Virus record (IMG/VR): IMGVR_UViG_3300020401_000126
Location: 1-20,419 of that record
Direction: 5' to 3' (one strand)
Origin: a virus
Length of the DNA stretch: 20,419 bases
Shown here: positions 7,033 to 10,601 of the stretch, in pieces
Numbering within the stretch: position 1 is the stretch's first letter
Layout of the letters: each line of letters starts with the position of its first letter
Program-made: the position numbers and the translations under genes
Notes under the pieces: generated by a model
The model's input: only the letters and a program-made list of their open reading frames with translations
Told to the model about the DNA's origin: nothing
The model's database searches: none

Positions 7033-7746
7033 ATGCCTTTACCAAAGATTAGCACTCCTACCTATGATTTGACGATACCTTCATCGAATCGAAAAATTAA
7101 ATACAGACCATTTCTCGTCAAGGAGGAGAAGATTCTTATCATCGCAATGGAAACTCAAGATGATAAGCAAATCGCAGAGGCGGTGAAAGATGTATTGGGT
7201 AGTTGTATTTTAACAAAGGGTATTAGTATTGATAAGTTATCGACATTCGATATTGAATATTTGTTCTTGAATATTCGTGGTAAGTCTGTTGGTGAGACAG
7301 TTGAAGTCATGATAACTTGCCCTGACGACAACACAACAAAAGTTCCTGTGACGGTTAATTTAGATGAGATACAAGTGAAGAGAAGTGATGATCATGATGT
7401 TGATATAAACTTAGATGGAAAACTATCCATGAGAATGAAGTATCCTTCAATGGGTGAATTTGTGAAGAATAACTTTAATGTTGAGATGAAGGTTGAAGAT
7501 ACTTTTGATATGGTATGTTCATGTATCGAACAAGTGTTCAGTGAAGATGAGTCTTGGGCAGCATCAGATTGCACAAAGAAAGAATTACTTGATTTTTTAG
7601 AGCAACTAGATTCAAGTCAATTTAAGAAAATTGAAAAATTCTTTGATACCATGCCTAAGTTATCACATACGATCAAGGTAACAAATCCAAAAACAAAAGT
7701 TGAAAGTGATGTTGTATTAGAGGGATTGAACGCTTTTTTCGTCTAG
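7033..7746 (+). CDS. gp26: gp26-like baseplate hub assembly protein
   Basis: A 237-residue protein of the T4 baseplate family (T4 gp26 is 208). T4 gp26 is needed for hub assembly and is not a major part of the finished particle. The N-terminus PLPKISTPTYDLTIPSSNRKIKYRPFLVKEEKILIIAMETQDD is characteristic: a short strand followed by FLVKEEK and a helix. Mid-protein contains FDIEYLFLNIRGKSVGE and CPDDN, and the C-terminal third is helical with LLDFLEQLDSSQFKKIEKFF. It begins 21 bases after a TATAAATA element. Its last codons, GCT TTT TTC GTC TAG, hold a slippery heptamer that could shift ribosomes into the next ORF; in that case this 237-residue form is the shorter of two products. Confidence 0.85.
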   Translation: MPLPKISTPTYDLTIPSSNRKIKYRPFLVKEEKILIIAMETQDDKQIAEAVKDVLGSCILTKGISIDKLSTFDIEYLFLNIRGKSVGETVEVMITCPDDNTTKVPVTVNLDEIQVKRSDDHDVDINLDGKLSMRMKYPSMGEFVKNNFNVEMKVEDTFDMVCSCIEQVFSEDESWAASDCTKKELLDFLEQLDSSQFKKIEKFFDTMPKLSHTIKVTNPKTKVESDVVLEGLNAFFV

Positions 7747-7776
7747 GTATGGCTCATGAGGATCTTGAGTCATACT
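7720..7776 (+). promoter_or_regulatory. Predicted programmed -1 ribosomal frameshift signal
   Basis: Three elements occur in order. First, an SD-like GAGG at 7720-7723. Second, ten bases on, the heptamer T TTT TTC at 7734-7740, in the correct X XXY YYZ phase for gp26 (codons TTT and TTC). Third, after five bases, an 11-bp hairpin: GGTATGGCTCA at 7746-7756 with TGAGTCATACT at 7766-7776, a 9-base loop and two G-U pairs. The -1 frame then reads CGT CTA GGT ATG with no stop and continues in the ORF beginning at 7749. This is the dnaX-type layout. Seen directly in the sequence; use in vivo is inferred. Confidence 0.75.
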
Positions 7777-7934
7777 ACAAAACAAATTTTGCCTTGATAC
7801 AACATCATAAATATAGTTTGACAGAGCTAGAAAATATGATTCCGTGGGAAAGAGATATCTATCTCACACTCCTTCAACAGTATATTGAGGAGGAAAAGTT
7901 AAAGCAACAACAGGAAAACGGTATCAATGGATGA
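7749..7934 (+). CDS. Small gp51-like/tail chaperone extension ORF
   Basis: A 61-residue helical ORF, AHEDLESYYKTNFALIQHHKY followed by SLTELENMIPWERDIYLTLLQQYIEEEKLKQ. The motif ELxxMxPWERDIY...L is typical of the short second reading frames of phage tail assembly chaperones. By position after gp26 it corresponds to T4 gene 51 (hub assembly catalyst), although T4 gp51 is much longer. Independent initiation looks poor: only AGG sits directly before ATG 7749, and that ATG is inside the left arm of a predicted 11-bp hairpin. It is therefore probably translated mainly as the C-terminal part of a gp26 frameshift product. It overlaps the next gene by 8 bases. Confidence 0.7.
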   Translation: MAHEDLESYYKTNFALIQHHKYSLTELENMIPWERDIYLTLLQQYIEEEKLKQQQENGING

Positions 7935-9249
7935 AGACCAACAACAAGATGGTCAGCAGGAACAGAAGATCTCATCATCTGCGTTCACAAGTTTTAATAT
8001 AACTCCTGCACCTCGAAGACCAATCTCATCTCTTGCACTATTTCAACGTCAGAGTGCTGAAAGTGATGAGCAAATTCGTGGTGTCGTAAGAAAAAATCAG
8101 TCAGCAATTAATACTATAAATTTGACTCTTGTGAATGTTACAGGTCAACTTCGTGAATTATCATTATCTCTAGTTAAAGTATCAACAGGAATAAAAGATT
8201 CAGCAGCAATAGAGAATTTAAGAATCGCTCAGGAACAAAAACAAGCACAGATGCTTGCTGATCGAAATGCAAGAAGGGGAACAGAGAATACATTAGAAAG
8301 AGGAATACAAGCAGCATTATTTGCACCAGTGCAAAGGATTGGTGCAAAGGTTAGATTTACTTTAGGTAGATTAATTAGTTTCTTTAATATTTTACTTGGT
8401 GGTTTTTTAGTAGGTAGAGTTATAAAAACAATTGAAGCATTGGTGAAGGGTGATGAAAAGGCACTAAAAGGTATTGGTGATGTAATCGTAAAGCAATTGA
8501 CTGCAGCTGGTGCAATATTCGTAGCGATTAATGGTGGATTAGGATTAGCGATAAGATCCCTGACTCAATTAGCATTTTTCATGGGTCGAATAGCAATATC
8601 AAATTTATTATTAAAACCAATCACTTTAATCTTTAGTGTTGCAAAAGCAGCTGGTGCAGCATTGGTTGCTCTTGCAGCTGCAGGACTTGGTGGTATATCA
8701 ATACCTCCCATTCGTGGAAACCCAAGATTACCGAATAATCGAAGACGGAATCGTGTTGGAGGAACTAGTGGTAATTTATTTAATATTCTTGGTGCTTTTC
8801 AATTGCGAGAGTTTGCAATCAATCAAGGAACAGACCCTAACGTTGCAACCGCTCAATCTATCGGTGGTTTAATTGCTGCTGGAGGTTTAAATAGGTTAGG
8901 TGATAGATTACAAAAAAGTCCGAACAGATTTGCTAAAGTCGGTGGATTCCTCCTGTCAACATTCTCAGGAGTCCTTGGACTCGGTGGTGCATTTTCACCT
9001 CAACTTGTTTCTCTTTTAGATTCAGCAGAAGTATCAAATGCAATTTCTGGAAATGTGAATAATTTTGATGATATTTTTAAAAATATTGAACAAAGTAATA
9101 TACCTAACATTGTCGTGGAACCAACTCAACGACCATCTCAACCTGTAACTGCAGAGGGTAGAGGTGCATTATTGATGGTTACACCATCAATAAATGATAA
9201 AAACCCTTATGTTCTAAATTCTCATCTTCTGTATAACGTAATAGTATGA
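7927..9249 (+). CDS. Putative tape measure / baseplate hub protein A (gp29-like position)
   Basis: A 440-residue protein starting at ATG 7927, overlapping the small chaperone ORF. The first 60 residues are Gln-rich and polar. Residues about 60-125 look like a coiled coil (repeated hydrophobics in NTINLTLVNVTGQLRELSLSLVKV). Next comes a basic segment, then about 150 residues rich in Gly, Ala, Leu and Ile with several possible membrane-inserting helices (FFNILLGGFLVGRVI; AAGAALVALAAAGLGGI). A coiled coil followed by hydrophobic stretches is typical of tape measure proteins, which set tail length and leave through the tube during DNA entry. The place straight after the chaperone ORFs fits this. 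At 440 residues it is shorter than T4 gp29 (590). It ends in an ATGA overlap with a second protein of similar layout. Confidence 0.55.
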   Translation: MDEDQQQDGQQEQKISSSAFTSFNITPAPRRPISSLALFQRQSAESDEQIRGVVRKNQSAINTINLTLVNVTGQLRELSLSLVKVSTGIKDSAAIENLRIAQEQKQAQMLADRNARRGTENTLERGIQAALFAPVQRIGAKVRFTLGRLISFFNILLGGFLVGRVIKTIEALVKGDEKALKGIGDVIVKQLTAAGAIFVAINGGLGLAIRSLTQLAFFMGRIAISNLLLKPITLIFSVAKAAGAALVALAAAGLGGISIPPIRGNPRLPNNRRRNRVGGTSGNLFNILGAFQLREFAINQGTDPNVATAQSIGGLIAAGGLNRLGDRLQKSPNRFAKVGGFLLSTFSGVLGLGGAFSPQLVSLLDSAEVSNAISGNVNNFDDIFKNIEQSNIPNIVVEPTQRPSQPVTAEGRGALLMVTPSINDKNPYVLNSHLLYNVIV

Positions 9250-10601
9250 GATCAATAATAAATTTAGATTCAATTAATAAATCTCTATCTGGATTAACAG
9301 AGTCAATTAAAAATGCTCAAAAACAATCTAATCAGATATCAGATAATGTAGAAAAAAGAAATAAAGTAAAGAGGGATGGTCTAACCATGTCTTCTAAACT
9401 ATTTGCGAGAAGAAGAGATAATAATCGTAGAAGAGAAAAGGAAGATCTTTTAGAGGCAAGTGGAGTCTTAGGAGCGTTAAAAGCAGGTAATAAAGTAATT
9501 AGGAGAACTTCAAAAGGATTTTTGGGTAGAATACTCGATTTCGTTGGAACAATCATAATTGGTTGGTCAATCTTAAATTTCCCTAAGATTATAAAACTTG
9601 CACAAGGTGTGATGAATAGACTTAAAAAGTTTTTTGGAATCTTGAACAAATTTGTAAATGGATTGAGTTTATTTTTTACAGGACTCGGAGCACGATTTGG
9701 TGAAATCGCTGAACTTTTAACAAGAATTAATTTTGAACCATTTTTAAATCAAGTTAAGAATTTCATGAAGAGAGTGACTGACTCTTTTACTAAGATCACA
9801 GTAAATACTATGAGAACAATTAAAAAATTTGTTGGTCGTAGTGAGAGGGAGATTGCATATGATATAGGTATAGGTGAGTTGTATGATAAAATTAAAAAAG
9901 GTCAATTACCCTTGCCTGAAGGAGAACCTAAAGAAGATGGGGATGAAGATCAACCACAAGGAGAGGAGGAAGGCACATCTGGAGATGAGTTTTTAGAAAA
10001 TCTTATAAAACAGGGATTAGAAGTTTTTAAGGAAAAAACTGGAGGTGAAATTACCGCAGAACAAAAGAAATTGCTTGAAAATAGAGAATTTGCTAAATTA
10101 GATGATTTATTAAGAACTCGAACTTCAAAATTTGAAGGAGCAGTTCTTCTGGAAGATACAAAAACTGGAATAGTTTCTTACATGGCTCTTAATGATTATA
10201 CTAGATTAGCACAACAATTATCAGAAAATGGAATTTTTCCTATCGGTCAACAATATGATCAAACAATTGATAATCCATTTCTAAACCCTCCACCCCCACC
10301 AGGTTCAAGTGGTGATTTTGAAGCAGGTGCTTTTTCTGAGATTACACCTGGTGATATTATGAGAGAAAAAATGATTGATTTTACTGCAAATGTTGAAGAT
10401 AGATTAGGAAAAATAAAATCAAAATTGTTTGATTTTACACCACCAAATAAACGTGTTAAAGAAATTCGTATACCAATAGAGGTGCCTGGTGGAGAGAGTC
10501 TTTCTCCTATTAGAAATTCTGCAGACTCTGATACAAGTGACATAAATAATAGTGATTTAAATATTAAATTAAAAGACTTATACAGATCAATAAGAAACTA
10601 G
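9246..10601 (+). CDS. Putative tape measure / baseplate hub protein B
   Basis: A 451-residue protein translationally coupled by ATGA to the preceding gene. Its layout is similar: N-terminal coiled-coil-like region (INKSLSGLTESIKNAQKQSNQI), a very basic patch (FARRRDNNRRREKEDLL), then a hydrophobic segment near 90-150 with GFLGRILDFVGTIIIGWSILNF and FVNGLSLFFTGLGARF. The middle is acidic and probably disordered (EPKEDGDEDQPQGEEEG), followed by a folded-looking stretch, a PPPPP run near residue 350 and an extended C-terminus. I do not recognise a named family. It may be a second tape-measure-like chain or an inner hub protein. The CATAAATA word at 10541-10548 lies near its 3' end, 55 bases before the gp27 start. 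Confidence 0.5.
   Translation: MRSIINLDSINKSLSGLTESIKNAQKQSNQISDNVEKRNKVKRDGLTMSSKLFARRRDNNRRREKEDLLEASGVLGALKAGNKVIRRTSKGFLGRILDFVGTIIIGWSILNFPKIIKLAQGVMNRLKKFFGILNKFVNGLSLFFTGLGARFGEIAELLTRINFEPFLNQVKNFMKRVTDSFTKITVNTMRTIKKFVGRSEREIAYDIGIGELYDKIKKGQLPLPEGEPKEDGDEDQPQGEEEGTSGDEFLENLIKQGLEVFKEKTGGEITAEQKKLLENREFAKLDDLLRTRTSKFEGAVLLEDTKTGIVSYMALNDYTRLAQQLSENGIFPIGQQYDQTIDNPFLNPPPPPGSSGDFEAGAFSEITPGDIMREKMIDFTANVEDRLGKIKSKLFDFTPPNKRVKEIRIPIEVPGGESLSPIRNSADSDTSDINNSDLNIKLKDLYRSIRN

Follow-up and report, generated by a model that had tools for sequence, protein, structure and literature searches.

Results

A candidate -1 frameshift site lies at the end of gp26

We analysed a stretch of 20,419 nt, referred to below as the window, that forms part of a T4-like marine phage (IMGVR_UViG_3300020401_000126). 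According to profile matches, its genes run in the order gp32-like, gp53-like, head closure, tail tube and gp26, followed by tail genes. The gp26 gene, a candidate short tail assembly chaperone (TAC-N), lies on the plus strand at 7033-7746, encodes 237 aa and ends with a TAG at 7744-7746. Among the cultured phages listed, its nearest relative is the gp26 of Prochlorococcus phage P-SSM5, with 69.9% identity. The protein is a member of the Pfam family T4_baseplate (PF12322; E 2.6e-73, 246.8 bits, against a curated cut-off of 24.5) and also matches phrog_150 (E 1.3e-81).

Following an Asn codon, the zero frame of gp26 closes with GCT TTT TTC GTC TAG, giving N A F F V stop. A slippery T TTT TTC heptamer, on which tandem tRNA-Phe could slip by -1, sits in phase with this frame at 7734-7740. 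An SD-like GAGGG, a putative stimulator, lies upstream at 7720-7724 and ends 9 nt before the heptamer. Downstream are a 5-nt spacer, GTCTA (7741-7745), and a putative stimulatory hairpin (7746-7776) with arms at 7746-7756 and 7766-7776 and a loop at 7757-7765; the hairpin comprises 11 pairs, G.U pairs included, and a 9-nt loop. All of these elements are on the plus strand, and in order the site reads GAGGG ATTGAACGC TTTTTTC GTCTA GGTATGGCTCA TGAGGATCT TGAGTCATACT. A ribosome that slipped on the heptamer would continue as FF-RLGMAHEDLESYYKTNFAL..., reading F F R L G M A H E D L E S Y Y K, for a total of 64 codons past the slip. This extension, which we call the T domain, spans 7740-7934 on the plus strand with its stop at 7932-7934, and the predicted fusion is 236 + 64 = 300 aa long. 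A sequence-only reading of the same DNA had reported a GAGG-type SD element, an in-phase T TTT TTC, a five-base spacer and an 11-bp hairpin together at the end of gp26, and we recovered all of them where it had placed them. It had also described a -1 frame that enters the next ORF without a stop, and this frame is indeed open for 66 codons, up to the stop at 7932-7934.

To place the site against background, we folded the 60 nt from 7741 and obtained a minimum free energy of -16.0 kcal/mol, compared with -9.2 +/- 2.3 in shuffled sequences (z -3.0; 0 of 200 shuffles as low). The window contains 42 in-phase X XXY YYZ heptamers in 6,105 codons. None of the others has so stable a fold downstream as the one that closes gp26, and a long -1 frame (66 codons) is found only there. 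We conclude that the site is confirmed and stands far above chance. In -1 cassettes of the E. coli dnaX type, an SD-like sequence is located about 10 nt upstream of an A AAA AAG heptamer and a hairpin about 5 nt downstream. The layout in the window is alike, although the heptamer here is U UUU UUC and the hairpin is not universal in the gp26 family.

The slippery heptamer and the -1 frame are conserved

From IMG/VR contigs and from phages in GenBank, we assembled 269 gp26 junctions. Reducing them at a DNA identity of 90%, measured over the final 240 nt of gp26, left 182 non-redundant junctions. The sequence-only reading had named conservation of the heptamer phase and of the open -1 frame across many relatives as support for frameshifting. 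Both were retained together, as in-phase T-TTT-TTN plus an open -1 frame, in 265 of the 269 homologous junctions and in 178 of the 182 non-redundant ones. TTTTTTN occurs elsewhere in the same genes at 6.7e-4 per codon. The 178 heptamers are 146 TTTTTTC, 19 TTTTTTA, 12 TTTTTTT and a single TTTTTTG, and 162 junctions of the non-redundant set have 3 nt between the heptamer end and the stop codon. Phages with the site include Kyanoviridae cyanophages, Pelagibacter HTVC008M, Methylophilales Melnitz, Sinorhizobium phiM7, Rhizobium RHph_I46, Caulobacter Cr30, Pseudomonas Astolliot, Ochrobactrum OC, Nitratidesulfovibrio SRB7757, Stenotrophomonas BUCT608, Aeromonas 65 and G2, and Vibrio KVP40.

Synonymous positions at the site are also biased. 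The base preceding the two Phe codons is T in 178/178 junctions, compared with 109.9 expected from synonymous codon usage, and TTT-TTC accounts for 146/158 Phe-Phe pairs at the site and 8/177 elsewhere. The nominal probability of 10^-39 overstates the evidence because the sequences are related, yet protein identities to the window go down to ~24-30%.

We then considered the -1 frame itself, which is 56-73 codons long across homologues and conserved at the protein level. Its residues on either side of the gp26 stop are constrained, with Arg at codon 0 in 139 junctions, Ile, Val or Leu at codon 1 in 176/178, and His at codon 5 in 156, and the zero-frame tail is variable. A stop in the -1 frame was sought in close relatives, as a finding that would speak against frameshifting, and none was found. 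Judging from sequence conservation, we conclude that it is the -1 frame that codes for protein across the gp26 stop.

The heptamer is missing from four junctions: BX-1, D494, IME-SM1 and L065. In the Vibrio phages BX-1 (Ackermannviridae; L092:3700-3760) and D494 (L093:3600-3640), the T domain is still in the -1 frame, and GTTTTTC or CTTTTC stands in place of T-TTT-TTN together with an overlapping TAATG; these phages may use another slip site or reinitiation. Stenotrophomonas phage IME-SM1 (L091:3735-3745) has five T's, where BUCT608 of the same genus has six (TTTTTTC), and its gp26 becomes a 280-aa ORF. Because this close relative has TTTTTTC, the disruption in IME-SM1 is probably a homopolymer sequencing error, a missing T.

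The remaining case, L065 (L065:3700-3730, on a 236-kb contig), belongs to the clade of the window, where a disrupted heptamer had been named as evidence against the site. It is the single disruption in that clade, and the remaining relatives are intact. In L065, the slippery site is replaced by TCTTTTTGGTTAGG, and a net 2-nt deletion brings the T domain in frame with gp26, so that the two are fused in a single frame of 297 aa. A duplication like that of T4 was ruled out for L065, as the 236-kb record contains only one gp26-like gene. L065 represents either a sequencing or assembly error or a natural change in a phage that makes the long form only.

Putative stimulatory elements vary among relatives

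An SD-like tetramer is present 6-20 nt upstream of the heptamer in 166/178 non-redundant homologues. Where a Glu codon occupies the SD-like position, it is GAG in 102/150 cases (68%), compared with a background of 31% (Fisher p 2.7e-19). Downstream, we scanned fold energy in 36-nt windows. The mean falls to -9 kcal/mol between 0 and +6 nt past the heptamer and is about -2.5 further off, and the commonest first paired base is +6 after the heptamer (62/176 homologues).

For covariation, we aligned 60 of the 66 distinct sequences of the window's clade. The six outside the alignment are the L046 type, which is without the stem, and five that seem, by eye, to keep it. Across the 60 sequences, 93% of the cells of the 11-bp stem are paired. 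Compensatory changes in the stem, another expectation of the sequence-only reading, were found at column pair 21-35, which joins position 3 of a fourfold-degenerate Ala codon with position 2 of a Glu/Ala/Val codon. This pair is UA in 26 sequences, GC in 21 and AU in 11, such that pairing is kept in 58/60. Other clades have different stems in the same place, for example GCCCTC/GAGGGC in P-HM2.

The window and its clade have both the SD-like element and the structure, but elsewhere the structure can be weak. The stem is weak or absent in many lineages, including the L046 type of the window's own clade, and fold energies outside the lowest 5% were found for about 40% of junctions. Since so many junctions have no outstanding stem, the comparison indicates that the hairpin is widespread, not universal, and is not an obligatory part. 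We conclude that the site is real, strongly conserved and very probably a working -1 frameshift.

T4 gp51 is related to gp26 and carries the T domain

In T4 gp51, residues 1-201 match PF12322 (E 3.9e-52) and the whole length matches phrog_150. Similarity to the last 40 residues of gp51 had already been recorded by the annotators of KVP40. By homology, gp51 is a gp26 paralogue fused to a T domain. T4 and the window thus share the same protein families, with gp26 as the short form and gp51 as a gp26-like domain plus the T extension. They differ in that T4 has two genes on opposite strands and no frameshift, whereas the window has one gene and a predicted frameshift. PF12322 genes number one in each of seven frameshift-type genomes and two in T4. 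TTTTTTN is absent from gene 26 in 7/7 phages with a separate fused gp51 (T4, Aes508, 44RR, AV114, Kpn6N, AB1I1T and KM3), and T4 gene 26 keeps the Phe-Phe pair as TTC TTT.

In a tree that is unrooted and has some long branches, the T4-group rows, gp26 and gp51 alike, fall together, apart from 27 frameshift-type rows (support 96/92). This clustering fits the prediction of a single duplication. In Klebsiella phage KM3 (L284:1801-3095), gp51 and gp26 are in tandem on the same strand, and in T4 the arrangement is divergent; the KM3 order may resemble the original duplication.

gp26 and its extension as a probable tail assembly chaperone pair

The sequence-only reading had suggested that gp26 and gp51 are the myoviral form of the lambda G/GT chaperones. 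We modelled gp26 with AlphaFold2 (pLDDT 88.7). The best structural matches of the model are to known TACs, 3fgx, 2ob9 (the HK97 tail assembly chaperone) and 3klu (YqbN), over ~85 N-terminal residues, with Z scores of 7.4-8.0, where unrelated chains give 4.1 or below and a Z of ~8 is near the level of chance arrangements. Foldseek ranked 2ob9 first, with an E above 1. The TAC-like region of the model is the N-terminal ~90 residues. Sequence profiles gave no link between gp26 and TACs, as a PDB sequence search returned chance matches only and NCBIfam no match; the link came from comparing folds alone.

Directly after the T domain lies the first gene of a probable tape-measure region (7927-9249, plus strand, 440 aa), with a weak phrog_35029 match. 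The downstream genes of the window match tape-measure families weakly; in Cr30 and HTVC008M, a tape measure is annotated shortly downstream of T, one small gene away. We also observed that 7927-10601 holds two consecutive genes of similar length, 440 and 451 aa, both with weak phrog_35029 matches, as if the tape measure region consisted of two related genes. The equivalent pairs in relatives measure 475/393, 644/653, 799/798, 918/918, 948/752 and 1018/940 aa, and equal length as a rule was borne out in part only.

A different reading is that the gp26-T frameshift fusion is a component or catalyst of the baseplate hub, unrelated to the G/GT chaperones. This corresponds to the older annotation, in which gp26 is a baseplate hub subunit and gp51 a hub assembly catalyst. 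Yet the same source (PMC3004832) has T4 gp51 required for assembly and missing from the particle. A chaperone is also favoured by the location before the probable tape measure, by the predicted frameshift as such and by the match to TAC folds, and the title of a 2022 paper by Vladimirov and colleagues, as cited in PMC10885494, names them tail assembly chaperones. We consider a hub role improbable.

A short and a C-terminally extended form exist in both systems, as gp26 and gp26-T (by predicted frameshift) in the window and as gp26 and gp51 in T4. The assignment of gp26 and its -1 product as a G/GT (TAC-N/TAC-NC) pair is supported by gp51 paralogy with the same extension, by the absence of the slippery site where gp51 is fused, by the modelled gp26 fold, by gene order in annotated relatives and by the role of T4 gp51 in assembly. 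The suggestion of a myoviral G/GT form is supported.

The small downstream ORF is the C-terminal extension

Mechanical gene calling places a 61-aa 'gp51' ORF at 7749-7934 on the plus strand. The ORF starts at an ATG that forms T-domain codon 3 and lies inside the hairpin. The ORF matches columns 239-278 of phrog_150 and columns 60-116 of phrog_634. The sequence-only reading had called it gp51-like, and its gp51 homology stands, in the C-terminal extension. It is not a whole gp51 gene, as it is homologous only to the last ~45-60 residues of T4 gp51 and the gp26-like domain is missing. An independent full-length gp51 would have its own gp26-like N-terminal domain and the extension in one ORF, and this ORF holds the extension only.

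One alternative is that this ORF is translated alone, from the ATG at 7749 or by termination-reinitiation at the gp26 stop, to give a separate small protein. In the window's clade, an ATG is indeed located a few nucleotides past the gp26 stop. Overlapping TAATG or TGATG occurs in the distant KVP40, Cr30, RHph_I46, phiM7, BX-1 and D494, and GenBank records list the T-domain ORF as a gene. However, the conserved domain begins at codon 0-1, and the first -1-frame ATG is at codon 8 or later, or absent, in 98/174 complete non-redundant cases. More than half of the lineages are therefore without an ATG near the start of the T frame, and in these the T domain cannot start alone, so we rejected an independent start at Met 7749 as the main route. 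Further, the codons from the heptamer to the ATG are constrained in the -1 frame, reinitiation needs neither T-TTT-TTN nor its codon choice, and in T4 the T domain exists only as a fusion to a gp26-like domain. Separate translation is thus very unlikely. Transcriptional rather than ribosomal slippage on the T6 run is also very unlikely. It could yield both products because a change in transcript length at this homopolymer would create the same fusion. However, efficient slippage by bacterial RNA polymerase takes a run of about 9 or more, and ~6-7 T's are kept across junctions. Moreover, ribosomal -1 sites make use of just such an SD-like element, phase and downstream hairpin.

With ribosomal frameshifting as the preferred reading, the annotation of this region can be understood. 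The ATG at 7749 in the window's clade is simply a Met where the common motif R-[ILV]-A-L-S-H has Leu. P-HM2 'gp51' is annotated from ~30 codons in, and ACG-2014d and Aeromonas G2 have no such gene annotated. This erratic annotation arises because the conserved domain begins without a nearby ATG. The same T domain is hit by phrog_634 ('baseplate hub assembly catalyst') and by phrog_150 in its final ~45 columns, a split that arises because frameshift extensions are annotated as separate genes. We found the T domain in 574 phage records, and it is likely that the 'gp51' gene in hundreds of genome records is spurious and represents the tail end of a frameshift protein.

Discussion

Our results lead us to a model in which gp26 is the short chaperone, a predicted -1 slip at U UUU UUC gives a 300-aa TAC-NC, and the T4 group uses two paralogous genes instead; we assign this reading a probability of about 0.92. 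gp26 would act as TAC-N, the counterpart of lambda gpG. A minority of ribosomes would slip by -1 at U UUU UUC, aided by the upstream SD-like GAGGG and the hairpin 5 nt downstream, pass the gp26 stop and add the T domain of ~64 residues, producing the counterpart of gpGT. By analogy with lambda, the tape measure protein would be coated by many copies of TAC-N and few of TAC-NC, with the T domain recruiting subunits of the tail tube. The paralogous genes 26 (short) and 51 (fused, long) would supply the two forms in T4 and its closest relatives, where the slippery site is absent. The site, its phase and conservation, the open frame, the covariation, the absent start codons, the homology to gp51 and the complementary distribution are read from sequence; we infer the slippage itself, its efficiency, the stoichiometry and the binding to tape measure and tube.

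The gpG/gpGT pair of lambda and the conserved tail-assembly frameshift were reportedly described by Levin in 1993 and by Xu, Hendrix and Duda in 2004. The window shares with lambda a -1 slip, here predicted, near the end of the chaperone gene, a long form with a C-terminal T domain and, probably, the position of these genes before the tape measure. The slippery sequences differ, G GGA AAG in lambda and U UUU UUN here, and sequence similarity between the two systems was undetected. A 2016 review (PMC5009743) describes wide conservation of the G-T frameshift among long-tailed phages 'except T4', and states that in lambda many G and few GT molecules occupy the tape measure, with T recruiting tube subunits. 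The same mode of action is, by inference, most likely here.

According to PMC10885494 and PMC12846349, Vladimirov, Gautam and Davidson (2022, Virology 566:9-15) identified gp26 and gp51 as tail chaperone genes of T4-like phages. With reference to that study, the PRFect paper (PMC10885494) mentions 'some T4-like phages' with one short and one fused gene and no frameshift, and PMC12846349 mentions T4-like phages whose TAC-N genes carry poly-T slippery sequences. According to the latter (2025), the TAC locus of Vandenendeviridae and Andersonviridae also has a conserved -1 frame, a poly-T motif at the end of TAC-N and a downstream frame misannotated as a gene. In contrast to the window, it belongs to other families and its motif is GTTTTT. 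Our literature search, in which the 2022 study was represented by the papers citing it, found no description of a cyanophage gp26 frameshift. The concept is published already, and perhaps cyanophage sites are too. New here are the extent of the survey, the tests on synonymous sites and on start codons, the covariation in the stem and the observation that the site and a separate gp51 are distributed in complementary fashion.

Taken together, we consider it likely that U UUU UUN frameshifting is the general, and probably ancestral, route to the long chaperone in the T4 superfamily. The T4 group would be the exception: its gene would have been duplicated, with one copy staying short and the other being fused, and the slippery codons would have been lost. 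A review made T4 the exception to the widespread tail-chaperone frameshift; judging from our data, frameshifting is used across most of the T4 superfamily in its wider sense. The analysis also explains the identity of the small cyanophage 'gp51' ORFs, corrects a systematic misannotation and provides a testable site in cyanobacterial phages. With a gene pair in place of a slip, T4 would illustrate clearly how duplication can take the place of recoding, and recoding that of duplication.
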